Shown here in pieces: positions 33,523 through 64,000 of a stretch of DNA of 64,000 bases. The stretch spans positions 558,001-622,000 of the forward strand of contig JABSSW010000023.1 of NCBI GenBank assembly GCA_018902385.1, read 5' to 3'. Positions within the stretch are counted from its first letter, which is position 1. Every line of letters starts with the position of its first letter. The notes below the pieces were generated by a model that was not told the DNA's origin, did not search any database, and worked only from the letters and a program-made list of their open reading frames with translations. Source of the stretch: Physcia stellaris (lineage: Eukaryota > Ascomycota > Lecanoromycetes > Caliciales > Physciaceae). The position numbers and the translations under genes were made by a program.

Positions 33523-33523
<1 letters not shown>

Positions 33524-34886
33524 ATCGATATCTGTGAAACGATAAAACGACAAATTTGATTAATAGAATTCGAAAAACAATAATGTAAATGCAATCGAAT
33601 TGCGAATAATTTGTGATTAACAAACGACAATTCACGTATTATCAACGAATTTCAAAAAAAACGTTTCGACGCGCAAAAACGTTGTCAAATTCGAAATGAT
33701 TTACACGAATTTTATTGTTATCGTTTTAATTTTCAATTTTGTTTACTGATTTTATTCGCATTCAATTAATGAAATTTAACGTATTTTTACGCGATTTTTT
33801 TTTTCATTGCAATTATCATTATTTCATCAAATTTACGTGTATATGTGTATAATTCAATAAAAAATTTCGATAATATATAAACATTCAATAATCGAAATAT
33901 AATTACATTCGAAATTTATTTGAAATTATTAAAATGTTTTTAAATGTTTTTAAACGTTTACAAATTTCATTATTGATTAAAATATTCGTATAACAATTTT
34001 TTCGAATCATGATAATTTTTGAAACATTTATGTAACACGCATAAATTTATTTTATATATTATACAATAATCAAACATTTTACGATTCGAACAATATTGTA
34101 TGTTGACATTTTTGAAAACACATATTTGACGTTTTCGAAATTACGTGTAAGAATTAATCGAACAATTATTTTACACACAATAAATTGATTTAATATATTT
34201 TAACGATTAATATATAATATTTAAATTTCGTAAAAGTTTTGCAATCAATTTTTGAATAAATACACATCGATTTCGATAATTGAAATTTTTTTTGTAATTG
34301 ATAACGATTTCAAACGATGTATACGTTTGTTACGATTAATTTTCACATAAAATTGAAATCAAAATATTTTAATCAAAAAAAATTAAAGTTTTCGCAAAAT
34401 TTCGACACAATTCGTCGAAAAAATATTTCATTGTTTATCGATTCGAAATCGAATCGATTTTGATCAAAACGTTTGAAACGTTTAAAATCGATTTTTAATT
34501 TTTTTGATCATTTTACATAATATTTGAATCAATTTCATGTTCGTAAAACATATTATCAAAAAATTTTAATCGATTTCGAACGCATAAAATTCATGCAATA
34601 ATACATTTTATCGAAAAACGATAAATGTTTTTGTATTATTGTATTATGAATATTATGAATTGAACACATATGAATTTATCGAAACATATTTGTTCGATTT
34701 CATATTATTTTTGCATTTTTTATTCGTTTTATTCAATATTATTTTTAATATTGTCATGAAAAAACGATAACATTGTTTATCTGTATCAATAACAATGTTT
34801 TTAATCTTTAAATAATTGTAAACAAATTTGACGAATTTAACAAATTGTTATTATGTCACGCGCAGTACGCGATTTTTTTTGACGTT
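33523..34886. other. AT-rich, C-before-pyrimidine-depleted DNA without recognisable genes
   Basis: About 1.36 kb of very AT-rich sequence with stops in all frames. The dinucleotides CpT, ApG, CpC and GpG are almost absent, whereas CpA, TpG and CpG remain common. Whatever repeat it came from is no longer recognisable by eye. Confidence 0.6.
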
Positions 34887-34891
34887 TTCGT

Positions 34892-35074
34892 TGTGACGAA
34901 CATATTATGTGTTTGAATTTTGATAAATGTTTGAATTTTTATCTTATCACATCGAAATTCGAATTCGAATTTCGTTATAATCAAATCTTTTACATATGTT
35001 TTGTTCGATTTTCATAATTAGTTTTGCAATTTAGAATTCTGTTCTTTATTCATATCATTGCATGACATTTTACA
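34892..35074 (+). repeat. R1 left (5') LTR
   Basis: 183 bp, starts TGTGACGAAC and ends TTTTACA. The same sequence recurs at 44,465 and, inverted, at 48,316 and 59,847, always 183 bp long. Confidence 0.88.
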
Positions 35075-35758
35075 TTATTTTAAACTTTTACAAACTCAAT
35101 CGAAATATGTTTTCGTACATGTTTCATCATAGTTTGTAGCAAACAATTGAATCGAATATTGCGTATTTCGCAACAGAATTTCGTCGATCAAAATCAAATA
35201 TTTGAATCATCAACGAATTTCGATTTTTCATTTTACACGTTTATTCAAATCAATACATCTATTTATCGCTCGTTTGTAATACGCGAAATTAAACAAACAT
35301 TCACATTTTTTTTCTTCAAAAAATCGATTTCGAAATCTCATATCAAATTTCAGAATCGTCACAATAATTCAGCATTCGAATCATTTATTTGTTTCGAAAA
35401 CTTTTCAAATTCATATTTATTTATTTAGCAAATCAAGACTTATTTTCTGTTTCGATGATAACATCAATAAAATTTCGAATGACAATTTTACGAATCGAAC
35501 TTTTAAACAAAACTTTCTCGAAACATTCAATCAATATTCAATATTTACATCGTCATTTCTATTGAAAAATTTTTCGAAATTTTTATTTATTTTCTTAGCA
35601 AATCGATCGTCTTTTTCAGCTTTCGCGATAAAAAAAATGCATTGTTCAATTTGTCACGTCGATTTTTTTTACAGATTTCACGAATAATTTCTTACAAAAA
35701 CATTATAGTGAATTTTATTTTTGTTTCATAACAATCATGAAAAAACAAATCAAAAAAT

Positions 35759-36531
35759 ATGCACGAAAGCGAAAACATATTAAACAGACAACTCGACAAC
35801 GAACAGAGAAAAAAAAACAAAAGCAAATCGAGCAAAAAAAAAACAGAAAAAAATCGAATTGATTCGTCAAAAAGTTCAAAAACGAACAAATCGCGAAATC
35901 GCGAAAGTCGAAATTCTGAAAATCAAACAACGATTGCAAATTACTCGTCAACGACGAATTCAAAAAAAAAACTATCGAAATTGCAAAATTTATATCAATA
36001 TTTCGTGATATCGATATATTCGATTCAACGTTCGTATGTGATATTTAAAAATTCGAATTGTATAGTCAAATCACGAACTTTTTGCAATATTTCGAACAAT
36101 GTCAACATCAATATCGAAAGTCAAATGTGTTCATTTTGTTATTTGAATGTTTTCGAAAATTTGTTTTCACATGATACAAAATTCAATCAAATTTCATTTT
36201 TTTGCAAAATTTCGACAAAGATTTTGTCAATGCGTTTTCTATTTCGATCGAATTTGAAACAATACAATCGATTTTATCAATTTTTTTGCATATTTCATTT
36301 TAATATCATTTATGCGTCGAATGTTTCGCTCAATTCTCGTTAATGATTCGATTTTTAAAACATATCAAACAAATCAATTGTTCGAAAATGATTTGCAAAC
36401 ATTGTAAACAAAATTTCAATTTTAAAAACAAATTTCACGATCACATACGCGAACATCATTTTCAGAAATTTGTCATTTCGTTTGTCACATCAAAAAATTC
36501 GAATTTTCGATTTTTCGCATCAGAATTGTAA
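35759..36531 (+). mobile_element. R1 gag-like region with a C2H2-type finger
   Basis: The first part is Lys/Ser/Asn-rich and basic. The second carries MICKHCKQNF followed by NKFHDHIREHH, a Cys2-His2-type zinc finger. The equivalent part of R2 (about 49,607-50,365, minus strand) retains the same finger. Related fingers occur ahead of the protease in G1 and G2, which hints that R borrows or shares a nucleic-acid-binding module with the chromoviruses. Fossil; the function is inferred. Confidence 0.55.
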
Positions 36532-36710
36532 CGAGTTGTTGAAGTGTAAAAAGAATGTCATTGATTCTGTGCAGAAAGCACGATATATAAAAAAGTCAAT
36601 TAACTAAATACAGAAAAAGCTAATCAGTCGATCAACAGACAAACAAATGCTAGCAACAGACAAACAGATGACAAAAGTTCTCAAACATCAATAAATCACA
36701 TATCGTGACA
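36527..36710 (-). repeat. G1 LTR, left copy (3' LTR in element sense)
   Basis: 184 bp, matches 43,414-43,597. It keeps more CpT and ApG than the element interior. Confidence 0.88.
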
Positions 36711-36999
36711 ATCTTTTTCGAACAAACAAGTCTAGCAACGTTTTCGTTGTTTCATCTTTCATATCATTGCTGTATCTTACGAGATCTGTCAAAACGACGC
36801 TTGTCAAATGATGTCGATGTTGATTGAGTTGTAATCAATGTCGATGTTGACTGAATTGTAATCGTATTATTTCGTCGCTGTTTTCTGTTTGACATCGTAA
36901 TTTCAATTGTAATTTCATATTGATCGATCAAATTCTTGACATTGTTCAGATTCTTGATACTAATTCATTTGTCGAATTGAAAATCATAATTTTTTCAAC

Positions 37000-39780
37000 G
37001 TGCTAAATATTGTGTCGTTACGTTTTTGTCTTTTTTGATGACACGTTTGTTGAATAATTTGTCAAATTCGAAAAATTTGTACGTCTCGATGTCATTTTTC
37101 ACAAAAACGAAATCGAATTGATTCGATTTAAAGCGATGATAAAAATCGCTGTCAAAAATCGAACAAAATTTCAATTGAATTATAATGAAAATCGGATGCA
37201 AACGTCAGTGATCAAATATTTCAAATTTATAAACGAGTCGATCAATACGTTTTAGCATTTTGAAAAAATCGACATATTATAAATCATATTTTTTGATGAT
37301 GTCAACGATAATTGAAATGCTATATTTTTTGTTCAACTGAAATAACGCTCATTCGTCGACAGCAAAAAATGTCGATTGATGTCGACGATCGTAATGTCGC
37401 TTTTGAAACATTATGACGAAAAAAATGACGTCGACAATTTTTGTTCTGACGATATGCTGATTGATAATTGACGCGTTCAAATTGATAAAATTCAACGATT
37501 GATCAAACGTAAAATCGTAAATAATGTCGTTGATCGATTTATCGATTGTAATTGACGAAACGTTGTTTAATTCGATTTGTAAACGTGATAGCGTGAATGA
37601 TCATTTGTCAGAATTATTCAATGTGACAATAAGATAGCGTAAAATTATCTCGACAATTTGATTGATGATTTCACTTTGATCGTCAGTTTGTGCGTGATAG
37701 ATTGTAAAATACAATAATTTGACGTCAAAATATTTGAAAATTGTAATTCACAATTCAGATAGAAATTTGCGATTTCTATCGAACAAAATGACGCTAAACG
37801 TATTTCAATCTGTCACGTTCAATTTGTCAATGAAAATTATGTTTCATTGAAACGTTGATCACGTGCTTTTTTCGATTACGAAAATGACGCGTTTGTTGAA
37901 TTTACAAATCATCGACATGACGAAATCATATTCGATTTCAATGACTATAAACAATGCGAGAATAAAGTCAATGATAATGATATGAAAAAGCATTGATGAT
38001 TTCTCGATAAACTGTAATGAATCGTAAAATTGATAACGACGTGTTTGATAAACGAGACATTTCGAACAGTGATGTAAATAAACTCGTAAATGTTTGTTCA
38101 AATCACGTATATATCAATTAGCTGACATTTTTTCGAAACATTTGACAAATCTCGAATGATCATTGTTGATATGATCAACGTCAAAAATGTTCTTGATGCA
38201 GTTTTTCGATATGCACAAACGACGATGTTCTGTAAACTTGTCGACATGATAAATTAAAAATCGAGTCGAAAAGTGCTGATTCGTAAAATTAAAATCGCTG
38301 ATATCGATTTTGAACGTTGCACTAGATGACAAAGAAGACGATGACATTGTCTGTGACGAATTGATTCTGATCAACGCAATGAAATGATTCATTGATGATG
38401 ATTTCGTTTGACTAAAATTAATTTTAGCGAATTTCATGAATGTTGTCGACGTAATCTCGCGTTGAAAAAAAATTGAAACGACATTCTCGTCAAATTTCTC
38501 GTTGATTAAAATCTGATTTTTAATTCGTTTTCAAGCTGAGTCATTATCGTAATCATCAAAAAGTTTGTTACGAAATTCATCGCTGAAATGAATCAACGAA
38601 ACGATTGCTTGATAAATATGTAACACATCAAATTCATTTTTTGATTTGAAATGCGCTTCGAAATTGACATTTGACAAACGTGACAACGCGTCAAACACGA
38701 CATGTTTCTTGTTAAATTTGTGACGAATGTCAAAATCAAATCGATTGAAGAATTCTGATGCACGAACAAATCGTAAATTTAGTTTGTCAATGAATGACGT
38801 TGTCAATGTCGATTGTTTAACAATATTCAATGTAATCGCGTGATTTGTATAAATGATTGTTTTCATTGAAACGACATCGTGATTGATGTACAAAATAATT
38901 TTAATTGACGACTCAATCATGTGTCGAATTTTCTTTAGTATTCATACGAATTCGACAATTTTTAGTTTCGTAAATCAATATTTGATTTCGACGATTGTTG
39001 ACAAACGATTGAAAAATAAAATAGACTGAATCGACGATCGACTAAAATAATCATCAATTGATACAATGTCGTCTTTGACGTGAAATATCATGACGTCAAT
39101 ATCGCGCTTTTTTGACGCGTCAAGATTCACGAAAATAAATCGACTAGAATCGTGATACGAAATAACTAAAACGACTCAATAATTTTTGAAAAATATCGAA
39201 AACGATCAATTTTATCGAAAACGACGTTTTTACAGCAATTCGTGTCGAATAAACACGACGTGAATTGTCAAACTTAAACGTCAATTTTAGAAAATTGATT
39301 TTTCGATTTTTGAGCGACTTTTCTATCTGAACGTAATATGATACATATTGACGTAATCAATTCGTCATGTCAAAATAAATTTCGAATTCGCGTAATGTGC
39401 GTGAAAATCGTAACATGCTGATAGTTTTCAGCTTGTCTTCGACAATTGACAAATCGAAAAATCAACGTGCTGATCAAATAGTTGAACATTCGAATAATCA
39501 AAAAACGCTTTATTTGACTTGATGAATATATTCAATTTGACGAATAAATCGAAAACTGCACGTAAATGTGAGACGTGTTTTTCGAACGTCTTAGAAAAAA
39601 TTACGATATCGTCAACGTAAACGCGAACACAATGACGCAATGAACGAAATATTCGATCAATTTGACGTTGTACATAAATCGAACTATTTTTGCAATTCAT
39701 GACAAATACGCAAAACGTTTTTTGCTCACGATGAATAACAACGATGAATTTATGTCTATCATTCGAATGCATTTTTCATT
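37000..39780 (-). mobile_element. G1 reverse transcriptase, RNase H, integrase and chromodomain remnants
   Basis: Recognisable blocks reading leftward: HREQKTFCVFVMNCKNS and YVDDIVIFSK (reverse transcriptase); TDKLNLRF-type and HKFNKKHVVFDALSRL (RNase H); HVDKF ... HHCSKC and IDFILAL (integrase zinc part and core start); a final block resembling a chromodomain. The order defines a chromovirus. Fossil. Confidence 0.85.
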
Positions 39781-40393
39781 GATAAAAAAAAGACGTTGCG
39801 TCAACGACGATAATGTATGCACATTCACGAATTAAAACTATGATGTCGTTTTGTAATGATATGAAATAAACGTCGAGTTCTAATAGTCGATTGAACTCAC
39901 GTATGTCAACAATTGTTCGATTCTTTTTTTCGTCAATAGAAAACGTTTTTCAAACAACAAACATCGAATAATTAAACGACGTTTGTTTGTTTGTTCACAT
40001 AAATCTGTTTTGTTCATGTAATTCGTCAAAAGTTTTATCAACGATCTTCTTATTTTTGTTTTTCAATGAATACATCTTAATTTTGTCGAATGTAATTCAT
40101 TCTTCTTTCAACGATATTCTCATTCATTTTTTTCGTGACAAATCGACGAAATCACGATCTCGTCAAAAATTCGAATAGTCATCGACAATTCGAATGAAAA
40201 TCTCGATTGTCACACTGTCTTCAAAAACATTAACGTCGTTAAACAATGTGATTTTTAGTTTGAACGTTGTTTCTACAACAAATGTGATTGTTAAAACGAT
40301 GATAATATTGACGTTGAATAACGTAATAGTCGATATTACGATCGACATAATGACATCGATAACTGTCAATGCGATGACACAAAATTTTTTCAT

Positions 40394-41506
40394 TCAACTT
40401 GTTTGATATATTGTTTTTGATGACTTAACGACTAAATCGCTATTTTCAATTGCTAAATTGCAGCAATTGTCGTAGCTTAATTCACTGATAATGTCGAATC
40501 TGAATTTTCTTGATAAAAAAATCGATTTATCGATTTCGTTACGTGTCAAAATGACGTTTGTAATGACATTCACGACGTGAACGTAAAATGACAAATTACA
40601 CTCGACAAATTCAAATAAAAAATCACGATTCGATAAGAATTCTTTACTGAAACGTCGAAAAAATATGACAAGCTGTGAGTGAAATGATATTACGATAATT
40701 TTGTCGATTTGTATTATCTGCTTGACACGACGATCTGATGATGTTTGTAATTTGATCGAAATTGTGACGTCGCAATTGTCAATGTTAATTTGACTAAACG
40801 AAATCATGATGTCTATTTGTTTCGATTCAATGATGTTTGTGTCAATAAACATTTTGATTTTCAATTCGTCAATTACATGAACTTCACGAATAATTTTAGT
40901 TATCACAGATTTGTTTTGTTTGTTAAAATCAAACACATGAATTGTGACGACGACATATTCGTTGATTTCGTGTTTGTTGTCGTCGATTCCGATGACGAAT
41001 ATTGACGTTGACTTTGTTTTGACGACTGTAATCGATGATTGTTCTGACAAAAATTGACAATCGACAAAAATAATGTCACAATCGATATTTAAACAAACTG
41101 ACTCGACAAAAACATTCAAGTCGAGCATAATTTTGACAATGATGTAATGTCATTGTCTAAAATCATATTTTTGTTTCACGTTGTTTTTAATAAAAAATTC
41201 GACAATTGACGACTTAACGATGATAATAAAGTCAAAATCGCTAATATCGATTGACTCGTCATGATACGATGTCGAAATCGAAATGTCAATGAATTTGAAC
41301 GATTGACATTCACCTCGAATGTGCTTGTGTAATTGATTATTTGATAAAAAAATCGATTTGCAACGTCGACAAAAATATTTCAATTGCGATGACGAAAAAT
41401 ATTCGTAACTGTCAATCTCATTGTTCGATTGATTTTGACGATTCGAATTGTAATAATTCAAATCGTCAACGAAATAGTTGCTAAATTGTTCGAATTCGTC
41501 TTTCAT
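40394..41506 (-). mobile_element. G1 finger and aspartic protease region
   Basis: A finger block FCRRCKSIFLSNNQLHKHIR is followed by a protease-like block with VCLNIDCDIIFVDCQFL, matching the D-T/S-G strand region of retroelement proteases as a diverged remnant. Fossil. Confidence 0.6.
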
Positions 41507-43413
41507 CGACGACGAATTGTAATCAATTCGTTTTTTCTTTTGTTCGTCATGCTGTTTTTCAATCTGATATGCAAATGATCGATTGCGTCAATTGCTGATG
41601 TTGTAATCGTCACGATTGCTTGAATCGTTTTTTGATTTGTCGTCTCGTTTGACGTTGTAATTGTCAATTTGTTGACGAACATCGTTTTGTCGTTGATTGT
41701 TCTGATTCTGATTTTGCGAATCTGACGCGTTTTCGTTTGTGATTTGTAACGACTGACGAGCGAAAAATAAAATTGACGTTAATGTTGATTTTGACTGATA
41801 GACATTAACAAATCGATTTGAAAAATATTGTTGATATTGATTTCGATTTGATTGATAATTTTGATATGATTGTTTGTCAAACTGATTTTTAAAATATTTG
41901 AAAGTAAAGTCTTGTTGACGATCAAAAATATACTGATCGATTGTTCTGTTGAATCGACTAAGATTGTCAAAACGTTAATTACGTGTCAATTCAAATCAAA
42001 TGCTGATTTTATTGTTCAATTGATTCAAAAAGCTGAATAATGAAATGATGATTGTAAATTCAAATATGTCACGTCGAAATTTTACATCAATGTTGTTTCA
42101 AACGATTGTCAATTGATTGTACATTGACGTCATTTTTGCAATTTTGACGTGACGTAACATTTTTTGAGCAAAAGCACGAAAAAATTTGTCAACTTTGACA
42201 TTTGCAAAAATGTAACGTTCTCGTTGAATATACTGAACGACAATGACTGTACGCTTTTTGAAACGTTTGATAAATATTGCATATCATTGTTCACAAATGA
42301 CAATTCGAAAAAAAATTCGTTTCATGTCGATAAATTCACTGAAATGTCAAATAAAAGTTGTGTTTTTTAGACAGACAATGATAACTTTTTGCATTTTGTT
42401 ATTGTCGCGTCGTGCAATCAGTTTTTTGAATTTATCAACAAAAATGTAAACATCGATGTAAAAGACGTGACGTTCAACGTTAATTACAAAAACATTCGAT
42501 TCATTGATTTCGTAATCAGAATCGAAATAATCAACGTTTTCGATTTTCAAATTATTGTTGTCAATGTTGACGTTGTTATCGTTGTTAAAAAAATCATTGA
42601 CATCGTCGTCATCGTGTGATCGATTCATAAATGTCTGTAAAAATTTTCATTGTTGACGAGTGAATTCGAATTTCTGATAGTTGTTGTCATTGAAATTGAC
42701 ATCGACATTGTCAGCATTGTCAGCGTTGTCTGACATGTTGTTTCGTTTTATTTTTTTCGTCATTGACGTGTTTCTAGTTTGTTGTGAACTGTCGATAAAG
42801 AAATTATCGAAAAAAATGACATCGATGAATGATGAATCGTCAAAAATATTGTTTGATTCAAATATCGTGATCGACGTAAAAATGTTTGCTGAAATAAAAA
42901 TAATTGAATAAAATGTTTGAGCTGATGTTTCGAATCGTTTGACGATTTTTTTGAAAATGAATTTGTCAAAAATTCAATCGCTGAATCAAATACGTGATTT
43001 TTTTTGTGTGTCGATTGAGTCGACTCGAAAACGTTCAAATGATTGTGTCGATGAAAATCGAAAATGTTGACGACAGACTTCGTACAAAACTTTTTGATAG
43101 TAGTGAATACGAATGTTTGATAACTGTGACCGATAACAACGAAGTTTTGTATTTGATGAGCTAAAATGACAATGTCACGAGTAATGTTAATTATCGAAAT
43201 CAACTTGACGATGTTTTGATTAAAGTTGACGTGAATCGTGAATGAGATTGTTGAATGAACAGTCGAAGTACTTTAGACAGAAAAATTACAGCAACGAAGC
43301 AAAAATCGCTTGTCGATTATTCACAGCATTGATTGATGATTCGAAAAATGAATTTGATACGTCAGACGACAATCAATGATGTCGTATTGACGTTGATAAA
43401 TGATGTTATCATT

Positions 43414-43597
43414 TGTAACGAATTGTTGAAATGTAAAAAGAATGTCATTGATTTTGTGCAAAAAGCACGATATATAAGAAAGTCAACTAACTAAATACAG
43501 AAAAAGCTAGTCAGTCGATCAACAGACAGACAAATGCTAACAACAAACAGACAGATGGCAGAAATTTCCAAGCATCAATAAATCACATATCGTGACA
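43414..43597 (-). repeat. G1 LTR, right copy (5' LTR in element sense)
   Basis: 184 bp. Just inside it (43,400-43,412, minus strand) is ATGATAACATCAT, identical to the sequence just inside the 5' LTR of G2, the place where a primer binding site is expected. Confidence 0.88.
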
Positions 43598-44108
43598 AGA
43601 ATTCACGTACAAAATTAACAAAAAAGTAGCAATTTGCTCGTTTGTTTCGTTTGTTTCGTTTATTTTTTTTGCAACATTAAAGTCGATATTCTGTTTTGCA
43701 TCGATATTTGAATCAATATCATCAAGAAATTCGCATTTTTCTATTGCGACATTCAATATTACATCAAGACAAACAGAAATTGCATCAATGTTAATTACAC
43801 GACATTTCACATCAAAACGAATTCAAATTGTCGCATTCAATTGTTCGTTTACATTTTCGATTTCATTTTTTCGAACATTTGTATCGAAATTTTATTTCAT
43901 TATCGATAATTTGATTCGCATATTTCGTAAAAAATTTAAATCATTTGATTTACATTCGCATCAAAAACGTCGTTTTTTTTTTCACGAAATTCTGACATTT
44001 TTTATCAGTCACGAATCATCGTTTATTTTCTGTTTGCATTCAATCAGAAAACGTCAATTAATCAAAATTTGAAAAATTCGAATTCGAAAAATTTTCAACA
44101 ACATACGT

Positions 44109-44405
44109 TTGCGAAATCGATTCGTTTTGTTTTTGTTTTGTCAGAAAAATCGATCTTTTCGTCATACAAAAAGTCAAACATCTTTTATATTTCGTTGTAA
44201 TCAAGATTTTCATTTTTGCAATCAAGATTTTTATCAAAATTTTCATTCGCATCGTTTACGTTTTCGTTTACGTTTTCGTCGTTTTTTCGATTTTCGATTT
44301 CAAATCACGTTTGTTGCATTTGTTTCGATTATTTCAATTTTCGTAATGATTCGTTCAATCATTCATGTTTTAATTAACGATATTTTTCGAATCGTCGATC
44401 GATGA
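44109..44405 (+). mobile_element. R1 small 3' frame
   Basis: A frame of about 99 codons with HFCNQDF repeats, an Arg/Phe-rich run and a hydrophobic stretch (ITFVAFVSIISIF). The equivalent frame is also open in R2. Whether it was ever a protein is unclear, as the composition is strongly skewed. Fossil. Confidence 0.35.
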
Positions 44406-44464
44406 GAAAAATGAAAAAAATAATTAATCGTTTCGAAACGAAACTGAAAAAAAACGAAAAATAA

Positions 44465-44647
44465 TGTAACGAACATATTATGTGTTTGAATTTTGATAAA
44501 TGTTTGAATTTTTATCTTATCACATCGAAATTCGAATTCGAATTTCGTTATGATCAAATTTTTTACATATGTTTTGTTCGATTTTCATAATTAATTTTGC
44601 AATTTAGAATTTTGTTGTTTATTTATATCATTGCATAACATTTTACA
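44465..44647 (+). repeat. R1 right (3') LTR
   Basis: 183 bp; pairs with 34,892-35,074 and is followed by the TTCGT target duplication. Confidence 0.88.
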
Positions 44648-50936: not shown

Positions 50937-51090
50937 TGTTATGACATTAACTTACTGACATAACTAACTAGATGACTAGTAAATGATTGTTTCGAAATCA
51001 TAATGTCTTGACACGTGTAATATTTAATCAGCAATTTTTTCTAATTAGTCAATTCATTTTTTTTACATCATACAATTCTGTATTATAACA
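50937..51090 (+). repeat. G2 5' LTR
   Basis: About 154 bp, TG...CA ends; ATGATAACATCAT follows immediately inside (51,092-51,104). Confidence 0.88.
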
Positions 51091-52059: not shown

Positions 52060-53198
52060 GTGTTCGTTAAAGTCGTTCGAAATTTTTGCAACGTCATTAC
52101 AATTTATCGTGATTCGAAGTATTTCAAACAATTGATTAAAATTTCACGACAACATTTTTCGTTTAACAGTTTTGTGACATTTTCGCAAAGTTCAAATACA
52201 TCATCTAAGTCTGAATTGTCACAAGAATTACGAAATTCGTTTGCAAAAGTTTCACGAATATCACGTCGAAACAAATTCATAATTAACATTGAAAACGTTT
52301 CTATTCGTTTCGATTTACGTTTTGTTTCGTCAAAAACATCAAATTATTCGTCTGTAATCAATTCATTTTCTCGACGTGTTACAAGCGTTACGTTTGTTGA
52401 CGAGATTATTCATCACGAGTTTATTGAATTACAATTAACACGAAATATGATCGATTTCATTGTGAAACAGCAACGAATCATTGCAATCATTGTACGAAAA
52501 ACTATTCAAATTATATCTCGTGAACGTGATGATGACGATGATGACGTTAAATCATTTAATTCGTTTAATTTTTCGAATTATTCGATCAAAATGACAATAT
52601 TGACAGCAACATTAAGTGAAATTCGATTAATTTTGATTTTTTCGATTCATATTACGATGACAAATCATTGATTAATGAAATTAATTCTATCGTTAATATT
52701 GAAAAGAATACATATTTTCGCGATGTACATTTGTTCATCGTACGAGCAAAGAAAATGACTTTTACGCGAAACGAACAATTAATTAAAAACAATTTGTGAC
52801 TTAGCTTAAAGAATATTGCGTTGAAATGATGAACAAATAAATTGTTTGACGTCGAACGTCGAATGATTAAAATGATTATAATTGAACAAAAAGAATTGTT
52901 TGAATGAATTAGTTTGTTGCACAACAAATTCAAACAATCTATTAACGTTATTATGAATAATTTAATGCAACAACGTTACACATTGAAAAATGTCGTTGTA
53001 CAGCGTGAATTTCGTGAATACGCACAAAAAATCATTCGATTAATCAAAAATGTTGACATGATCAACGTATTAAATCAATTCGATTTCATTTACAATAACA
53101 TCGATATTGATGTACGAGTTGACACGTTACGTCGTTTCAAAAATAATATCATTATCAACGAAATGCTTAGCGATATGAACGAATTCAAACACGATTGA
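52060..53198 (+). mobile_element. G2 gag region remnants
   Basis: Two blocks with charged helical composition (for example REFREYAQKIIRLIKNVD and DVRVDTLRRFKNNI), upstream of the finger and protease, in the position of gag. Fossil; assigned mainly by position. Confidence 0.5.
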
Positions 53199-54773
53199 TG
53201 AATTAAAGCTGTTAAATTACGCAACAATAAAATATTCAATTATGTAAATTGGCGAGATAGTGTCAGACGCAAACTACGTAACTAAATCTTATACACAAAA
53301 TGCTTTTACACAATAAAAAACTAATTCATCGTTTTTCAAATCACAGAATTTCAACAGAGTTTTTACGTCGAATTAAATTTTGAAGTCACAAAATGTTCGA
53401 TTCTCGACAATATTCATGATTATATATAACGATCAATCGTTTTTTTTTCGCAATTTCAAATTCGACGAATTTCGATTTCGTTTGACAAAACGTCTTCAAA
53501 ATCACAACGTGAATTGTTATGGATTTTTTCAATACTTTTTGATCGAAAATTCGCAACGATGAAATGACGTTTCATCAAGCGATCGATACGTTGTCGTTTT
53601 TTTTCAAGTTTTGCTGAATTTCAAAACGATGTATCGTCAAAATCATCGAAGTTTACAAGCAAATCATTGTTCATTGCGAAATGAAACAGTTCGCTCAGTT
53701 AAATTTCAAGCAACAATGCAAAATACTGATTATGATAATCACTATTTTGTTTGAATGTTCGAAGTCGAAACAATCAAAATTGCAACGAAATCAAATCAAG
53801 CGTCATGAGCTGAACAAAGCACAAACAATCTTCAAGATCTTCGAAAAAGCGAATTCGTTGAAAAGTGAAAATAAAAAAATTTTGAATCATGCTTTGAGAC
53901 TGCGCGCGACGCAAATAAAAGCAACGTTTCGAATTGCTTTGTAATCATGTTGCGAAAAAAGGAAAATCTTAATGGAACTTGACGAAAAAGATGAATTGAA
54001 AGTACATTTGAAATTGACGTTATCGAAATACGAATTTGATGAAGAGCGCTGATATAGAATAGAGATTGCAGATTGTAATGAAAGAAAAAAAATAACAAAT
54101 GTAGAGGTTGATCGTCGTTATGATCATGAGAGTTCTGAGTTCGAGAATTGTCTTGCTATGAGATGTATTCGCAATAGTTGTTATACACAATATGATTGTC
54201 ATTTCTTTTCAGATTCGAACCTCAATATTCAAAATAATCGCATTTAATTATTTAGACAAAACGTTTGTTCACAGCAATTCGATCAATATAACAATAACAA
54301 TCGTCAATCGCAATTTCAACGACAATTATTTCAATTTCAATCGTTTCAGCGACAATTTTTTCAATCTCGTTATTCGAATAATATTTATCAAAATCAATTT
54401 TTTCAATTTCGTCAGAATTATCAGCAAGCAAAATATCAAAATTACAAATCAATTGATTATCAAGTCGATTATTCAAATAATCAAAAAAATCAATATTCAA
54501 ACGTCAACGTTTGCACGTTGTTTATTTTATCGAATCGATTACAAATTACAGTCGATTCAACAAACGTCAACGCGTCAAATTCGAATCAACAGCAATTTAT
54601 GTCATCGCGACAGTTTTTTAAATCGCTTAACAATATTCAACGAGACGATTATAGTGATTACGATGAATATGCACAGCGTTTTCAAACAACGTATCAAATT
54701 AACGTGATTGACGAAACGAATGAAAATAATTACATAAATGATATTAGCGATGCTCATTGATTAGTCGACTATA

Positions 54774-55961
54774 ATGATATTAACGATAACGTATTCGTTT
54801 ACGATGATCAATCAAATTTACTCGATGATTACAATCAGAACGCGAAAATTGCACAAAATGTCAATTTTTTGTCATCAATTACAGAAGTCAGCACTGATGC
54901 ACATATTTGTAATCACTGTAACAATATTTTTACGTTTAGAAATCAATTATTCAAGCATTTACGTAGCGCATGTTGATTTTTTGATACGTTCAAACACGTC
55001 AATCACGCAACATTGCACGATAATTTTATGATGTCGCACGTTAATCACGCTGTATCGATAATAAAATTATCATTTTCGTTTATTTCAAACATTAAGATTT
55101 TTCGCAGAAAGATTTACGAGTTTTCACACGTTTTTTTTTCAGTCAATCGTCGCGTTATTCAGTTTATTGTACGTTTTGACGAAATTAGTTTTGATTACGT
55201 TTTTCGTGAATATCAATACGATCAGACTATCGTTAAATTAGATAATAGCATCGAAAACATCAAGATATGCATCGATATTGATTGTTTTGTTATTATGATT
55301 GATCGCAAATTTCTTCACACAATTATTATTTAATGTATCGATGCAAAAATTAATTTTATTTATATTTGTGCGAAATGTGAATGACAAAATTGTCAAATCA
55401 AACAAGTTCATGTTTGTTAATATGACGTTTGATGAAATGTTCAAATCAAAACACGAAATTATTGACGTTATTGAAATTGAAATGCATTTTATTGATGATT
55501 TTGCAATCAACATATTGTTCGTTAATGATGTTATTTATTCACAAAATATCAAAATAGATTTCGAAAAGCGTCGTTTTATTATAATCAAATATGAAAATCT
55601 TCGTGTGTCAATTGATGTGTTTAATCGAGTTATTTCGCACGTCAAACGTATCATTCGTTTTCGTCAAACATACATTTTACAATTTGATGATTTTGCGAAA
55701 ATACTCGTTACGTATCACGACTTTTCTTTTGACGATAAAGACTTTTTTTTTGAATTTTATTGTCAATACGATTTAGATTACGATGATGACGTGTATGCAC
55801 ACGTTGTGAATAACAATTTATTCAAAATGTTCGTTCGCAACGTTACATTTCAATTTATTACGTTTGCGAAACGTGCACGACTAAATATGATTATTGAATA
55901 CAATCAAATTGAATGTTATTTGACTATGTCAAAAAAATCGTACAAAACAATCAATGATTGA
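54774..55961 (+). mobile_element. G2 finger and aspartic protease region
   Basis: A finger block CNHCNNIFTFRNQLFKHLR is followed by IKICIDIDCFVIMIDRKFL, the diverged protease active-site region, and further protease-linker sequence. Same order as in G1. Fossil. Confidence 0.6.
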
Positions 55962-56623
55962 ATGAACGATCGTTTATGAAAAAAACAATTGATCGTCAAT
56001 TTTGTTATTTTTGTTGCAACGTATGTTACATTAGACACAATTTCGCACGTTTCGCACGAATCGATTACATCGTTGAACGAGTTTATTGTATCGTTCATTT
56101 CGAGCATTCAGCTCGTTGTGTTTATTGTGTCACAAATCGATTTGAGTCTGAAACACGTGTTATCTAGTGACGTTATCGTGTACGAAGTTGAAATGTTCGA
56201 ATTAGTTAATTTAATGAACAATTATCAGAACATATTTCGCGATTTTGACTTGATTGTAAACATTTCTGAAAACGAATAAATGTTTATTAATTTTAAATCT
56301 GAAACTGTATTTAAATTCAACAAAATATATTTTTTAAAAGTCAAGAATCGCAATTTTATTGACGTTATTTTCGACAAATTACATCAACAAAACAAATTGC
56401 ATTGAACGATTCAATTTATTTCGTTCAATTATTCAGTTTTCGTTGTTTGACGCGACATTTTCACAAATAAAAAAAACGTGTAATGATAAACATAAAAAAC
56501 TTAAACGACATCATTGAAAGCGACAATTATTTGTTTTCATTGCAATTTGATATCATAATTGAAATTGTCGATTCATTTTACATTTTTATAATTGATGTTG
56601 TGAATTGATTTCATCAATTCAAC

Positions 56624-59450
56624 GTGCAACGCAAAAATCGTCACAAGTTCACTATTGTGACGCATCGTGAACAAAAAAAATTCAATGTAATTTTTATAAA
56701 TTACAAAAATTCATTTTCATACGTGCAACGTCAAACGAACAAACTATTACGTTCGTACAAACAATTTGTTAAAACGTACGTGAACGATATTATCGTTCAT
56801 TTCAAAATTTTACGAAAACATTTGAAACATTTACGCACGTTTTTTCAAATGTTTCGCACGAAACGCATTAATTTAACTGTCACGAAGTCGTTTTTAGCGT
56901 ATTTTTTTGTTATTTTGTTAAATCAACGAATTGATAGTTTAAACATGTTTATTATTGCTGAAAAAATAATCGTCATTATTTCATTACGTTTTTCATTTAG
57001 TTTGCGTGATTTCGAAATTTTCATAAAGTTTACGAATTAATTACGTTTATCAATATTTCGTTACGCTCAACGTGTGCAATCGTTACAAAAACGTAAAATC
57101 ACGTTCACGAAAAACGTTATTGTCAACGAATTTGCACGAAAAAAACAAACAATTAAGACGCAATTATACGATTTTATTTTCGAAAAACATATCGTTTTTC
57201 GAAACTTGCAGATCGCATTCGTTTCATCAACGTTTTTGATTCATTTCGACAAAAAACGTCGATTTTACATTGATTTGAATATTTTCAAACAATGAAATTT
57301 TGCAACAATAATGTATTACATGCTAAATGATTTATTTAGCGATGTCACGTATTCGCGTACAGTCATTCAATCAATAATGTTTTTTAGTCGATGTTTGAAT
57401 GACGTCGAAAAAAACTATTAATCAACAGAATTGAAAATAATCGACATTGTGTGAATAATTCGTAAAGTCAAACATATGATAAAATCAATTGAAATATTTT
57501 CAGTTATCATTTACATTGATCATTTTGTTGTTGTATTCATTAGTCGACAAAATATTTTCATTATTTTCAATAATGATAAGTTAAATTTACGATTTGTGCG
57601 AATTTCGCAATATTTATTCGATTTTAATTTGTTTGTTAAACACAAAATTGACAAAACGAACGTAATGTCAAATGTTTTATTCAGATTACAGATTGTCGTG
57701 ATTATTATTGACAAAATCGACGTATTCGAATCATTGTACGAACATATTTTGAAATTCACGCAAGCAAATTTGATTTTGAAAACATTTTTGTATTTTTATC
57801 ATGTGACGTTAATAAAAATGTCAAACGATTTCAAAATTCGATTTAAACAAACGTATCAAAATGACGAGCATTGATTCAAAATATTCGTCATTGTACGATT
57901 TGTTGTCGTAATTGACACAATTACGTCAATTACATTTTCGCACGAAATTGTTGTTACGAACGAAACTATATCGACGCACGAAATTATTTTTGTAATCACA
58001 TTTGCTATCGCTTCGCTGAAGATTTACGAGTTTTTTGATTTTCGTGATGTACGCTTTCGATACAAAAATGACTTATTGTATTACATTTTTGATTTCGATT
58101 CGAAACGTTTGTGCATATTCGCAATCATGAAAATTGAAATATTTCAACAAGTTCACGATTTTACACATCACGACGATTTCATGCATACATACGATAAATT
58201 ACGCAATTTTATTTACGTACACTCAATGATTAAACATTTTAAAATTTACATAATTCATTGTTCGAAATGTCAAATTAATTAAATCAAACGTCATTTTGTT
58301 TACGACGAATTCACATTTATAATATCATCAACGATATTTTTTCATACAATAATTATGAATTTCATCGTGAAACTATCGTTTAATCGTGACATGAACGTAT
58401 TGCTTACGATTACGTGCAAATTTTTCAAGAAAATTTTATTGATTTCGAGTCACGATATTTGATTTGCAACTGACTGAACTAATGTAATTATTGTAACGTT
58501 TATGAAGCACGATTGAAATATTTCGCATGTTATTGCATCAAATAGAAATAGCAAATTCATGTCAGATTTTTGACAAACGATGTTCAATAAATTCAAAACA
58601 ATTATATTCATTTTCACAATTTATCATTTTCAAACGAATGATCAATCGAAACGAATCAATCAATTTATCGAAATCGTTTTGCGTTTTCACGTCATCGCAC
58701 ATTTCGATGACGAATGAGTCGACGTATTATCGTTTATACAAGTCGATAACAACAACGTCGTTCACATCATTATTGAATACGTTTCGAACGAATCAGTTTA
58801 TGAATTCAAAATCAATGATACATTAAACATGTTAACAAATTTATCATTTGCAAATTACAATCAATTGCGTCAAATCAAACGAAAAAACGTCGAAGTTGTT
58901 ATGACATTCGTTAACGCTTTGAGCAAAACTCGTTACGATGCAATACACAAGACGTTAAAATTCAAAATTGACGATAAGATGTATTTGCGTTTACATCATG
59001 ACTATACGATATTCGATTTATTTAATCACAAATTGTCGAAACAACGTGTAGAATTTTTTTTTGTCATCGAAAAAATCGACAATTTCGTTTTTCGATTACA
59101 GTTATTTTTTGTCATGAAAATACATTTTGTTGTATTAATTGCACAGCTAAAATCAATTACGCGTGACACGAATTCTTATGATAAAACTGTCGATAAAAAT
59201 TCGTCATCAATTCACGAAAAACAGTTTATTGCATTAATCGAGCAAATTTCGTTGTACGAAATCGAACGTCTGTTGAATCGACGTATCATTTTTACAGATC
59301 GCATCAATTATTTAATCAAATGAAAAAATTACGATTCGAAACACAATGTGTGATATTTTTTGCACGTTCTCGATATTTTCAAAAATCTCGTCGATATTTA
59401 CGATTTACAGCATTTCATTGAGATTGACAAAACAGACGAAACACGTGAAA
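56624..59450 (+). mobile_element. G2 reverse transcriptase, RNase H, integrase and chromodomain remnants
   Basis: Reverse transcriptase block with THREQKKFNVIFINYKNS and TYVNDIIVHFK. RNase H block with NDKLNLRFVRISQY. Integrase zinc part with VHDFTHHDDFMH and IIHCSKCQIN. Integrase C-terminal block with DDKMYLRLHHDYTIFDLFNH. Chromodomain start with YEIERLLNRRIIF. This set marks a chromovirus. Fossil. Confidence 0.85.
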
Positions 59451-59607
59451 AACGCGAAAAACGCGATAGAAATCGTTTTAGAAATAGATTTCGAAAAACA
59501 AGACGCGAATAAATGATTAATGTGTGATATGTTGATCAGAACATGATTATATGTATAGATTAAATGTGTCAGTGAAAGCATTGAGTTTTTTTTTGTTGCT
59601 GTGCATT

Positions 59608-59762
59608 TGTTATGACATTAATTTATTGACATAGTTAATTAAATGATTAGTAAATGATTGTTTCGAAATCATAATGTCTTAACACGTGTAATATTTAATC
59701 AGCAGTTTTTTCTAATTAGTCAATTCATTTTTTTCTATATCATACAATTCTGTATCATAACA
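59608..59762 (+). repeat. G2 3' LTR
   Basis: 155 bp, pairs with 50,937-51,090. Most differences between the pair are CT versus TT or AG versus AA. Confidence 0.88.
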
Positions 59763-59846
59763 GTTCGATTCAATTGTTTGTTACAAATTATGATTGAAAC
59801 ATGTACGAAAACATATCTTTGTTGAATTTGATAAAGTTTAAAATAA

Positions 59847-60029
59847 TATAAAATGTTATGCAATGATATGAATTAACAACAAAATTCTAGATTGCAAAAT
59901 TAATTATGAAAATTTGACAAATCATATGTAAATGATTTGATCATAATCGAAATTCGAATTAAAATTTCGATGTGATAAGATAAAAATTCAAACATTTATC
60001 AAAATTCAATATATAATATGCTCGTCACA
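59847..60029 (-). repeat. R2 LTR, right copy (5' LTR in element sense)
   Basis: 183 bp, followed by the TAAAA target duplication. Confidence 0.86.
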
Positions 60030-60034
60030 TAAAA

Positions 60035-63000
60035 TTCGTAATTGTTTGTTGTATGTTAATAATGTAAAAAATCGAAATAACACGTAATATATTTTTTATC
60101 GTTAAATTTTCGAATATCATGTTTGTTTTTTTATCATTCGCGAAATATTTTTTAATCACATGATGTATAATTGTGATTTCAAAAAATATCATAATAAAAC
60201 GAAATTTATTGAATATGTTTTTGATGTACATTTTAAAATCGAAATCATTTTTGAAATTTTTGAAAAATATGTCGTAAATTGCGATAATTATAATGTCGAC
60301 AATAAATAAAATAAATTACATAACATTTGTTAATTTTTATTGTAATAATTGACACGCATTTATTTATTTTCGATTGAAAAATGTAAAAAACGTAAACATT
60401 GCGTGACTAAAATGTGCGAATAATAATATAAATTGTTATGATAAATGTTAAACACATAATAAAACTAATTGTTAAAATTTACAAAAAGTTCGTGAAATTT
60501 CGAATAATAAATGTAAAAGATAAAAGTTCAGAATTTTCGAAAATGCGATTCGCATTTCGTTAAACAATTCGATTATCGAAATTCGAATGATTTCGAAAAA
60601 ATCAATTTCAATCATTTTACAATTCGATCAACGATAAACTCAACAAATTCATATTGTCAATCGAAATCGATCGAATTCGTACGATTGAATAAATTCGTTG
60701 TGAATAAAAAACAATTGCAAAACGTAATCTGTTTTGTAACGATTAATAAATCAATATATTACATTTCAAATTATACATTTCTGATGTCAATAATTCATTA
60801 AATTATATTATTTCTAATACGAATTTTACAATAAACAAGAAATGCGACAATTAAATTCACAACGTTTTAGCGTTCGTTTGATCGATTTCGTTTCATTACA
60901 ATTTTTTTTAATGATCGATTTTTCGCGTCAATTATCAATGTTTTATAGTATATCAAAAATGTATCGCAACAACGTTGTTTTGTAAATAATTTTGTGCTTT
61001 CGACGTGTAATTTTGAAACATTGTAATTCAATAAATAGAAATAACAATAACAATGTAATGTAATTTCAAATATTGCGTTCGTGTTGTAATATCGAATGAA
61101 TCGCGTCATATGTTGAAAATTGTTTATTTCAAATTTCGAATTCATTTCTTGAATTTTTTTAAACATTTTTATTTTACAACATAATAAATATTTCATTTGA
61201 TTTTTTTTGTTTTTGCGATAACAATAATTATTGCAACAATGATATCAACATGATATATCGTTGTTTGTACAGTTATTACATCGTTTTTACAAATAATAAT
61301 GTTGTCGCAATGACGTTTCAATGACGACGAAATTGATTTTCGAATGTCGACAATGCAATACGTGTGTTAACGATACGATAAATCATAATTTCATTTTTTT
61401 TTTCGTTGTTTGTTACATTTTGCAAAAACACGCAATTTGTTGTTTTTGTTGTAAATGTATTGTAAATAACGATGACGTTGTTGACGCGTGTTAAATTGAC
61501 AAATTTTTTTCGTTTGAATCGTTGAACGCATTCAATACGACAAAAATGTATTTTGATCGCGATATTCGCGATCGCATTGTAATCAAATTCAATAAACAAC
61601 AAAATAAACGTTTACAAACAAACAGCGCTTCATGTAAAATTGAAATTATCGAATATCATCGTTTTTGTCATTTTTATTTGACATTATCGTATCATCATCA
61701 CGATCATCGCTTTGTTGTACGAAACATCACATTGACAATTCACGATTGTACGTTGAGACGTTGATGATTTTGCGTTCGAATATACACATAATTACGTTCG
61801 AATTGCAAAAATCGAACGTTTCGTTTAAGCAATTTTCAGTTAATTTTTCATGAAATTAACATTCTTCATATCATAATATGATATGACATGACGTTGCGAT
61901 ATCAACATGATATACATATATTTTTTTCAAGAATTCTTTTTAGCGTTTTTTTTTTTAACGTCGTTTTTAACTCGTCGCATGTCGCATGTCGCATATTTAT
62001 TGTTTCGAAACTTGCAATTCAACGAAACAACGTATTACGAAATTTGCAATTCAACGAAACAACGTGTTACGAAATCAATTACGAAGTTTGCAATTCAACG
62101 AAACAACGTATATATTACGAGACTTGCAATTCAATGAGACAGCGTGTTACGAAATCAACGTGACAACGTTATCAAATTTTGAGCAATTTCTGATTCAGTT
62201 GCTCAATTTGTATGATAAATTGTATGATTATCAGACAGTTGATTTGAAAATTCTTTCAAGATTTTCGTCGTATTTCGATTTTTAGACTGAATACGAAATA
62301 GACTGTTTCGAAATAAAGTTTATTCGCAAATCGTGTTTTTCACGCTAAAAAATCATTTTTGTATTGAATTAAATACATTCAATTGTTTCAAATCAATATT
62401 AACGCGTAACAGAATCAATTCATTTATAATGTCAACGTTGCGTTCAAAAATTTCGTTATAATTTAAAACACGTTTGCGTTTTTTTTGACGAAAACAAACG
62501 AAACAAATGCAAACTTTGCAACAAAAATTTTCATTATTGTAAAAAAAACATGATTTCAATGAAATTGCAAAACAACGTTCGCATTTTCGTTGTCAAAAAT
62601 AACGACAAAAAATGTTGAAATTGATTTTGAAACATTGAAAAAATAATAGCATGCAATTTTTAATGCGTAACGTGATTAATACGATGCAAATGTCAATCGA
62701 AAAAATTCGTTGTTTTTTATCAAAAAATTTTTCGTAAGATTGCAATGATTGTTACATCAAAATCTGTTGAAAAAAAATTTTTTTTGATAATTGTTTTTGT
62801 TTTTTCGTTCGTTTTCGCGTTGATTCGCAAAAAAATTCGAATTTTTTTGTTTCGTTTTCGATTTTGATTCGTTTTGTTTTGTTTTGTTTTTGATTTTCGT
62901 CATCATCGATTCGATTGCGTCTGTTTCGTTTGTCGATTTCGCGTCGTTTGTTTTTGTATCGCAAACAAATTCGTTTGTTTCGCGTTTGTTTTTGCGTTCG

Positions 63001-64000
63001 ATTTCGACAACAAAATCGCGTAATAAACGATAAACAACATTTCAATTTAAACGCAACGACAATTAACATGACACAATCGAAATAAATTTGATTGTGATAA
63101 TTTGAATTTTGATTGATAAATTTATCGACGCATTAATGTACATTGTGATGTTTTTTTGAATTTAATGATCGTATGATTTTGCTTGTTTTGTGTTTGTTTT
63201 CGTTGAAATGTTAATTTTTGTTGTTTTTGTTGTGATGTGTTGTTTTGTGATTTGTTTGTTAAAATTTACGAATTTCAATACATTTTTATTTGAAATGTAT
63301 GCAAATTGCGCATGTAATCAAAAATAATTCACAATATCATTTTATTGTTTGTGTTTTTGCGTCGCAATTATTGTTATTTTTGTTTTTTAAATCGTTCACG
63401 TTTTTTCAATTTTAAAAATTGACGTGTTTGTTTTTTTGTTGAAAATTTTTCGCTCGATTTCGTTTTGAATTTGTTTGTTTTTCGACGTTTCGCAATTTTT
63501 TCAAATTTGCGTAATTTGCGCGCATTTTCGAATTTGACAATTGCGTTTTTCGCATTTTCGAAATATTTCATTGATTTTCACGAATTTTCATATGACGATA
63601 AATTTATTCATGCAATAAAATATTCAAATTGATTTTTTTTAATGCGTTTGTTTAACATTTGCGATATTTTTCATTTTTTTTTCGTTTTTTATTAATATTG
63701 ATTGCGATTTTGAATTTGCGTCGTCACGATTATATCAAAATTCGAATAAAAAAACATGAAACACAAAATGTATGAATTCATATTGTTTAAACAAATCAAA
63801 CTCGTAAATTTGCGTATTTATTTTTTTGACAATTTCGAAAAAATTCAATTGTTTATGATCAATTTTTTTTTTGAAACGCAATGTGCGTATATTTACATCA
63901 CGCAACAACATTTTTTTCAAATTCAAAATTTTTCATTATATGATTTTCATTATAATATTTGATTTGTTGTTCGAAAATCGTTTTTCACAATTTCATTAAA
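60035..64000. other. AT-rich DNA without recognisable genes, continuing past the window
   Basis: About 4 kb with the same dinucleotide skew. Low-complexity Lys/Arg- or Phe-rich frames (for example 62,752-63,069) reflect base composition. No LTR pair or pol remnant was recognised. A tandem array at 62,005-62,170 is listed separately. Confidence 0.55.
62005..62170 (+). repeat. Imperfect tandem array around TTGCAATTCAACGAAACAAC
   Basis: Four copies of a 33-45 bp unit (TTGCAATTCAACGAAACAAC followed by a TTACGAAA word) beginning near 62,012, 62,044, 62,088 and 62,124. A short GTCGCAT triplet repeat lies just upstream (about 61,974-61,995). Confidence 0.8.

Follow-up and report, generated by a model that had tools for sequence, protein, structure and literature searches.

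Loss of cytosine before pyrimidines in an AT-rich transposon compartment of Physcia stellaris

Introduction

Among the closest described systems is repeat-induced point mutation (RIP), known from Neurospora crassa and further Pezizomycotina, which is triggered by homology in duplicated sequence before meiosis and depends on RID. Under RIP both strands of transposons undergo C-to-T change and the AT-rich compartment has a sharp border with the genes, and both properties are found at the locus described here; an excerpt on Cladonia likewise notes sharp compartment borders (PMC12542154). The preference of RIP, as given in passages of PMC5496416, is CpA > CpT > CpG > CpC in N. crassa, while in T. 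reesei CpA is about equal to CpG, followed by CpT > CpC. Other Ascomycota (Botrytis, Sclerotinia, Magnaporthe, Colletotrichum truncatum, and Anisogramma) resemble our locus in that they carry CpT to TpT changes in transposons, which predominate in some of them. According to the excerpted text of a ten-genome survey (PMC4352252), every genome with a CpA or CpT signature had a RID/Masc1-like gene, and CpT accompanied CpA in each species. Low CpA/TpG indices (0.08–0.14) persist even in those C. truncatum families that are scored as CpT (PMC6180176), and Anisogramma shows both CpA and CpT signatures (PMC10998396). The nearest precedent for CpT without CpA comes from Stagonospora nodorum and its short rDNA repeats, a case that in the authors' view may not be RIP (PMC2621366). 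Context-biased C-to-T mutation also occurs in the Basidiomycota, where it is described in extracts as CpG-type in Microbotryum and the rusts (PMC4352252, PMC8063080). For Rhizoctonia solani AG8, a possible partial precedent for CpC targeting, the extracted SNP spacing is closest at CpC (214 bp), followed by CpG (370), CpA (422), and CpT (491), and the authors there describe the mutation as CpG-biased (PMC4014442). A chemical parallel is SBS11, the O6-methylguanine signature, with C-to-T at CpC and CpT (PMC12556801).

Herein we analyze a 64,000-nucleotide stretch of the P. stellaris genome (the window), in which the order of targets, CpC > CpT >> CpA > CpG, is nearly inverted relative to that of N. 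crassa RIP. Unlike the Ascomycota with CpT signatures, the window mostly keeps CpA, and CpC goes first. Unlike the Basidiomycota, CpG is untouched, and CpT, the rarest target in AG8, is a main one here. SBS11 differs in being the signature of treated cells, not one targeted to transposons.

Results

Composition of the AT-rich compartment and its border

The window comprises a gene side (1–33,400, GC 0.49), which served as the unmutated control, and an AT-rich compartment (33,523–64,000, GC 0.272). All 16 dinucleotides were tallied, the AT-rich part against 200 mononucleotide shuffles and the gene side as observed/expected ratios (O/E) only. In the compartment CpC was counted 6 times against a shuffle mean of 541 (z = −27), about 1% of the expected count, GpG 9 times against 587 (z = −27), CpT 421 times against 1,526 (z = −39), and ApG 450 times against 1,490 (z = −38). 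The near absence of these four dinucleotides had been claimed in an earlier sequence-only reading, and the deficit is far larger than base composition gives. That reading had estimated about 20 CpA, 19 TpG, and 14 CpG, with no CpT, ApG, CpC, or GpG, in the patch at 46,021–46,380; the counts are 21, 20, and 15, and zero for each of the other four. It had also named CpA/TpG as the best-preserved pair, and although CpA (1,941 versus a shuffle mean of 1,432; O/E 1.36) and TpG (2,072 versus 1,586) do exceed expectation, CpG is better preserved (1,691 versus 560, z = +50, O/E 3.01). TpA has an O/E of 0.51, and TpC is kept (1.30) where CpT is lost (0.28). On the gene side all ratios are normal, 0.75 to 1.13. 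In 300-bp windows, the CpY share of all C spans 0.341–0.604 on the gene side (n = 111, every one of them at least 0.341) and 0–0.297 on the AT side (n = 101), such that the two ranges are disjoint. The C-to-T loss at CpY in the AT-rich compartment is thus confirmed as real. By segment, CpA retention is 0.346–0.575 compared to 0.589 on the gene side, while CpG retention is 0.437–0.495 compared to 0.429, so there is no CpG loss. With the targets ordered CpC > CpT >> CpA > CpG, CpA is a slow secondary target.

The change from normal to hypermutated DNA sits at a perfect (AATC)23 array (33,431–33,522), the unit of which contains no CpY and no RpG. Across this array the number of CpY in 150 bp goes down from 35 (bin 33,301) to 2 (bin 33,451), and the sharp edge adjoins an open frame. 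The gene side encodes VPS29, an alanine-glyoxylate aminotransferase, a Zn2Cys6 factor (Zn2Cys6/Fungal_trans domains were detected), and a CYSTM protein; among solved structures VPS29 is matched best by 6h7w, which we take to be of fungal source. A tRNA scan with bacterial settings gave no tRNA, an Rfam scan gave no match, and pattern matches for relatives of the aminotransferase (14 in genome contigs), of VPS29 (46 in genome contigs, 9 in viral contigs), and of the reverse transcriptase described below (2 in viral contigs) yielded none confirmed by tblastn.

Nested elements and the context of LTR differences

The compartment contains four nested LTR elements, each with an exact 5-bp target duplication (TSD). 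Element E1 (34,892–44,647, plus strand; TSD TTCGT at 34,887–34,891 and 44,648–44,652) is split by G1, a Ty3/Gypsy-type retrotransposon on the minus strand (36,527–43,597; TSD AGAAT; RVT_1 E 2.3e-10), and a second E element, E2 (48,316–60,029, minus strand; TSD TTTTA), is split by G2, a Gypsy-type retrotransposon on the plus strand (50,937–59,762; TSD GTTCG) with an Integrase_H2C2 match (E 1.2e-6) and an RVT_1 match (E 1.1e-4) that lies below Pfam's cut-off. Within the window the E elements and the LTRs occur as repeats. The LTRs of one element are identical at insertion. Those of E1 (34,892–35,074 and 44,465–44,647) differ by 7 transitions and 1 transversion, those of G1 (36,527–36,710 and 43,414–43,597) by 17 transitions and no transversion, all 17 at CpY, those of E2 (48,316–48,498 and 59,847–60,029, the edge at 59,847 being fixed by LTR length) by 18 transitions and no transversion, and those of G2 (50,937–51,090 and 59,608–59,762) by 11 transitions, no transversion, and 1 gap. 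The pooled total of 53 transitions to 1 transversion bears out the earlier observation that LTR pairs differ nearly always by transitions, and 8 of the 11 differences in G2 are CT/TT or AG/AA, as had been noted.

Pooled over these four pairs from one window, C/T differences affect 37 of 56 CpY, 16 of 113 CpA, and 0 of 32 CpG sites (CpY versus CpR, Fisher p = 2e-14). Hence CpA is not the favored target as in Neurospora, and the C-to-T changes are not mostly at CpA, with 37 CpY to 16 CpA differences overall. The survival of C before A and G, also claimed from sequence alone, holds at CpG and needs a correction at CpA, which is mostly kept but slowly lost. The pair of G1 is the clearest (17/28 CpY, 0/40 CpR, p = 5e-9), while in E2 the CpA differences (9/31) equal its 9 CpY differences in number. 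Among the 53 of 56 CpY sites that have one unchanged 5′ base, differences follow T in 18/27, A in 12/17, and G in 4/9, and there is no strong 5′ effect. With rough LTR bounds an earlier tally stood at 57 transitions and 11 transversions (CpY 37/56, CpA 18/116, CpG 0/34), and its extra transversions fell outside the LTRs once the bounds were exact. Copy alignments took in the copies inside the window. All 14 self-alignments rank the contexts as the LTR pairs do (CpT 111/147, CpC 2/2, CpA 87/480, CpG 36/314), and they were kept out of the argument as they overlap and include diverged copies (328 transitions, 180 transversions).

CpT retention follows the nesting: it is 0.136 in G1, the least mutated element by this measure, and 0.106 in G2, 0.075 and 0.067 in the hosts E1 and E2, and 0.011–0.038 in other DNA. 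Retention is higher in the LTRs than in the body for G1 (0.291 versus 0.127, p = 3e-6) and G2 (0.200 versus 0.103, p = 0.003), unlike E1 and E2, in which the LTRs are not less mutated than the bodies. The E1 flanks of G1 retain 0.031 and 0.101, compared to 0.291 for the G1 LTRs.

RIP indices, simulations, and codons

With RIP called at TpA/ApT ≥ 0.89 and (CpA+TpG)/(ApC+GpT) ≤ 1.03, none of 59 windows in the AT part is called, nor any of 65 on the gene side, so that indices based on CpA and TpA do misread such DNA, as had been predicted. Over the whole AT part the two values are 0.505 and 1.278, and the composite index is −0.77 versus −0.51 on the gene side, meaning that the mutated DNA is scored as less RIP-like. 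The ratio (CpC+GpG)/(TpC+GpA) separates the two, 0.004 versus 0.828. Forward simulation of CpY-only mutation on gene-side sequence gave GC 0.258 and CpG O/E 3.14 (observed, 0.272 and 3.01), which roughly reproduces the GC content and dinucleotides of the compartment. Simulated CpA-type, CpG-type, and uniform C-to-T models did not fit.

The open stretch of the G1 reverse transcriptase lies at 39,428–39,775 on the minus strand. Within that frame, the central 1,200 codons, a part picked after the map of stops had been seen, contain 16 TGA, 1 TAA, no TAG, no TGG, no CCN, 2 GGN, and 65 CAA/CAG; TGA versus TAA/TAG is 16/1 in this frame and 94/62 in the other two same-strand frames (p = 0.006). The whole G1 frame is less clean (39 TGA and 10 TAA/TAG, versus 168 and 109 in the other frames). 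Pfam scoring of TGA as Trp on the G1 reverse transcriptase piece, with ten residues tried, did not discriminate (W 48.5, L 50.1, F 49.3, C 48.6 bits). The G2 frame is broken, and 3 TGG are kept in one G2 frame.

Discussion

In the window we observe the direction and context of the change, its presence on both strands, its absence from the gene side, and a loss that follows the nesting order. These C-to-T (G-to-A) transitions, which affect the two strands of transposon DNA as RIP does, support the RIP-like process with CpY preference suggested by the sequence-only reading. We propose, as the probable explanation, a RIP-like process that mutates repeats by means of an enzyme recognizing CpY. In this mechanism repeated DNA would be what is recognized, C in either strand of a transposon would become T according to its 3′ neighbor (C > T >> A > G), appearing on the opposite strand as RpG to RpA, and deamination of C or 5-methylcytosine would then be fixed as T, presumably in successive rounds. 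Methyltransferases of the RID/DIM-2/Masc kind select cytosines by their 3′ neighbor, and for this reason a cytosine methyltransferase of that type is our candidate. Against the proposal, the less mutated LTRs of G1 and G2 are not predicted by simple repeat targeting unless edges are spared, and the CpA losses in the E2 LTRs (9/31) could mean that more than one process is mixed. APOBEC/AID-type deamination, which picks C by its 5′ neighbor, is rejected by the contrast of CpT with TpC and by the differences after T, A, and G alike, and UV (dipyrimidine) mutagenesis, in which TpC is lost along with CpT, is rejected by C/(C+T) values of 0.534 at TCA and 0.450 at TCG compared to 0.644 and 0.436 on the gene side.

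If the transposons were methylated at CpY, slow deamination of their 5-methylcytosine, without RIP, would also give a C-to-T loss in the transposon compartment that follows nesting, and an excerpt on Austropuccinia psidii proposes such a route for CpG depletion in transposons over time (PMC8063080). For slow decay, however, 53 transitions against 1 transversion in the LTR pairs is an extreme ratio, and CpG is not lost, which makes this route rather unlikely. We know of no CpY-confined methylation system. Decay of CpG methylation itself, with its CpG depletion and TpG/CpA excess, is rejected by the CpG O/E of 3.01 and the 0 of 32 CpG differences. It is extremely improbable that saturation or composition disguises classical RIP, in which CpA goes first, or CpG decay. 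Alignments in RIP-capable control fungi are dominated by CpT to TpT in the extract of PMC7882544, which could stem from CpA saturation, but CpA, TpA, and CpG O/E here are 1.36, 0.51, and 3.0 while simulated CpA RIP gives CA 0.15, TA 1.38, and CC 1.70, and the dinucleotide and LTR counts refute both processes for this window.

A chemical origin, which we consider unlikely, would have endogenous O6-alkylguanine-type damage accumulate in poorly repaired heterochromatin, where an alkylated G after a purine pairs with T and becomes A, equivalent to C to T at CpC/CpT opposite. O6-alkylguanine damage is not expected to be confined to one compartment, and yet the CpY share stays at 0.341 or more in each of the 111 gene-side windows, none of which is depleted, and CpY per 150 bp drops from 35 to 2 over one array. 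The near elimination of CpC, to about 1% of expectation, and the differences between neighboring DNA by element (E1 flanks versus G1 LTRs), though age alone could explain the latter, also count against it. On the other side, loss follows the nesting order, and the AT part shows the C>T at CpC and CpT that defines SBS11 (PMC12556801). Moreover, NDMA-induced mutations lie at 5′-PuGN, and log-odds rank G above A at −1, in an extract of PMC10041537, matching CpC > CpT. Finally, the AT-rich part might come from another organism through a chimeric join, or be an artefact of assembly, given that the boundary coincides with a perfect array of 23 units and that blastn found no repeat common to both sides of it. 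This is quite improbable, however, because the AT part is coherent, with four nested LTR elements and exact TSDs, and a join would leave the CpY signature itself unexplained.

If the enzyme is RIP-like, its target preference is nearly the inverse of Neurospora's, and the locus would be a natural experiment on context choice in RID/DIM-2-type methyltransferases. It is conceivable, though somewhat unlikely, that the mutations come from a system dedicated to transposons and unrelated to the RID lineage, perhaps one acting on guanine after purine rather than on cytosine; its CpY (RpG) signature would be scored as unmutated by CpA-based indices, and similar systems may hide in genomes listed as lacking RIP. 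Surveys using the usual composite index would miss species with CpY mutation.

The CpY context also determines how coding frames decay. CAA, CAG, and CGA are not made into stops, and frames die instead through TGG to TGA and the loss of Gly and Pro codons. With most new stops avoided in this way, open frames that are still fairly long can persist in dead elements and could be annotated as genes; those in G1 reach 251 codons.

Depletion of cytosine before pyrimidines

The sequence-only reading held that CpT, CpC, ApG and GpG are missing from the AT-rich compartment (33,523-64,000), and the counts bear this out far past chance. Measured against the means of 200 shuffles of this stretch, CC occurs 6 times (mean 541), GG 9 (587), CT 421 (1,526) and AG 450 (1,490), with an excess of CpA, TpG and CpG, the last threefold. 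Dinucleotide counts are normal on the gene side (1-33,400), and in windows of 300 bp the share of all C standing in CpY (CpC or CpT) is 0.341-0.604 for the 111 windows there and 0-0.297 for the 101 in the compartment, ranges that do not overlap. The signature in the window is real and strong.

A simulation that started from gene-side sequence and confined mutation to CpC (rate 5) and CpT (rate 2.5) gave GC 0.258 and observed/expected ratios of 3.14 for CG, 1.42 for TC, 0.14 for AG and 0.35 for TA, against 0.272, 3.01, 1.30, 0.30 and 0.51 observed in the compartment, a fit that is rough because the rates were hand-picked and gene-side DNA is a proxy for unmutated transposons. Addition of CpA at 0.25 repaired TA (0.53) and overshot CG (4.03) and GC (0.228). 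The CpA-type, CpG-type and uniform models that were tried misfit at CC, CG or TA.

The LTR elements and the context of mutation

About 70% of the compartment consists of four LTR elements, each flanked by an exact 5-bp target duplication: E1 (34,892-44,647; TTCGT), interrupted by G1 (36,527-43,597; AGAAT), and E2 (60,029-48,316, minus strand; TTTTA), interrupted by G2 (50,937-59,762; GTTCG). Repeat R of the sequence-only reading probably corresponds to the LTR of E. A reverse transcriptase domain is present in G1, whose top matches among solved structures, once TGA is translated as W, are 4ol8 and 7q5b (Ty3-G Gag-Pol by name); in G2 an integrase zinc-binding domain passes the Pfam cut-off and a weak reverse transcriptase match falls short of it. 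None of four pieces of E searched against Pfam had a match at E 0.1, and with the inserted element removed the E interior (within 34,892-44,647 and 48,316-60,029) is short, roughly 2.3-2.5 kb; on these features E1 and E2 may be non-autonomous.

An element inserts with two identical LTRs, and any difference between them therefore arose by mutation afterwards. In the four pairs taken together, transitions number 53, against 1 transversion and a single gap column, and every transition is a C/T difference preceding Y or A on one strand. Differences occur at 37 of 56 CpY, 16 of 113 CpA and 0 of 32 CpG sites (G1: 17/28, 0/32 and 0/8; G2: 8/14, 3/23 and 0/4; E1: 3/5, 4/27 and 0/12; E2: 9/9, 9/31 and 0/8), the sparing of CpG relative to CpA having a p of 0.02. 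Since CpA is hit while CpG is spared, CpA is a slow secondary target, which corrects the earlier claim that CpA is best preserved. The internal copies of E1 and E2, which are more diverged, also show differences at CpA and at CpG, with many transversions; as these differences may predate insertion, the copies were not used to establish context. Between 62,003 and 62,158 a tandemly duplicated unit of about 76-80 bp shows 7 transitions and 1 transversion between its copies, with differences at 6 of 6 CpT, 1 of 13 CpG and 0 of 10 CpA sites.

Within the G1 coding frame, the middle 1,200 codons contain 16 TGA, 1 TAA and no TAG, no TGG or CCN and 2 GGN, and retain 51 CAA, 14 CAG and 25 CGA, a pattern predicted by mutation at CpY but not by mutation at CpA. 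The whole frame has 39 TGA, 9 TAA and 1 TAG stops, and reading TGA as Trp in G1 gave a family score no better than other residues did.

Uneven loss and its order in time

Retention was computed per segment with element bounds a few bases off. CpC is wiped out in every segment (0-0.006), CpG is flat (0.437-0.495; gene side 0.429), and for CpA the figure is 0.575 in G1, against 0.346-0.534 across the other segments. CpT is best retained in G1 (0.136) and G2 (0.106), with 0.075 for the host element E1, 0.067 for the host element E2 and 0.011-0.038 for the remaining DNA. An inserted element is younger than the host it interrupts, and here it retains more CpT, so the loss appears to accumulate with time, as judged from two nests (G1 in E1, G2 in E2). 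The LTRs of G1 (36,527-36,710 and 43,414-43,597) and G2 (50,937-51,090 and 59,608-59,762) retain about double the CpT of the bodies (0.291 vs 0.127 and 0.200 vs 0.103), which an edge effect would fit, although LTR composition may also account for it; the LTRs of E1 and E2 retain no more than their bodies.

On the coding strand, ApG survives better than CpT in G1 (36,711-43,413; 0.154 vs 0.099) and G2 (51,091-59,607; 0.137 vs 0.071), with the same lean in E1 (0.086 vs 0.071) and E2 (0.089 vs 0.049). This asymmetry could stem from a strand bias in the mutating process or from the codon use that the elements started with; the gene side, where the two strands were not sorted into coding and non-coding, does not serve as a proper control for it.

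Relation to known systems and mechanism

The preference of textbook RIP is nearly the inverse of this signature. In the excerpts of the papers cited here, the RIP order is CpA>CpT>CpG>CpC in N. crassa and CpA~CpG, then CpT>CpC, in T. reesei (PMC5496416), and CpT signatures accompany CpA and a RID/Masc1-like gene in a survey whose three Basidiomycota are CpG-type (PMC4352252). The same excerpts describe alignments that can be dominated by CpT in RIP-capable control fungi (PMC7882544), CpT change exceeding CpA change in N. crassa Tad1 and CpT change without CpA RIP in short S. nodorum rDNA repeats (PMC2621366), closest SNP spacing at CpC in R. solani AG8 (PMC4014442) and CpC to TpT double mutations alongside CpA RIP in Monilinia (PMC8959702). 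Hence CpT or CpC change is not by itself new; the unusual part is that CpA and CpG are kept while CpC and CpT are both erased, a combination of which we found no earlier report in excerpts of open-licence full text. Because tests in the window found neither the CpA preference of RIP nor a RIP call by the standard indices, we would class the process as a RIP-like variant and not as RIP proper.

On both strands the target cytosine is chosen by its 3' neighbour, which does not fit the contexts of APOBEC or UV chemistry. A cytosine methyltransferase-type enzyme would be compatible with such a choice, judging from sequence context. O6-methylguanine mutagenesis predicts the observed context equally, G after a purine, and excerpts of the literature give CpC plus CpT for SBS11 (PMC12556801) and 5'-PuGN for NDMA-induced mutations (PMC10041537), so that sequence context does not separate it from the enzyme. 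A targeted process is favoured by the edge of the compartment and by the absence of the signature from the gene side.

That edge lies at a perfect (AATC)23 array (33,431-33,522), which lies 12 bases beyond the stop codon that ends an open frame (33,080-33,418). The AATC unit has no CpY and no RpG (the same sites on the other strand), so the array would be immune to the mutating process; it would also be the easiest place for a false join. The gene side (1-33,400) carries VPS29, alanine-glyoxylate aminotransferase, a Zn2Cys6 factor with a Fungal_trans domain, a CYSTM protein and a coiled-coil-like open reading frame (8,721-9,926) that may be Bfr1-like.
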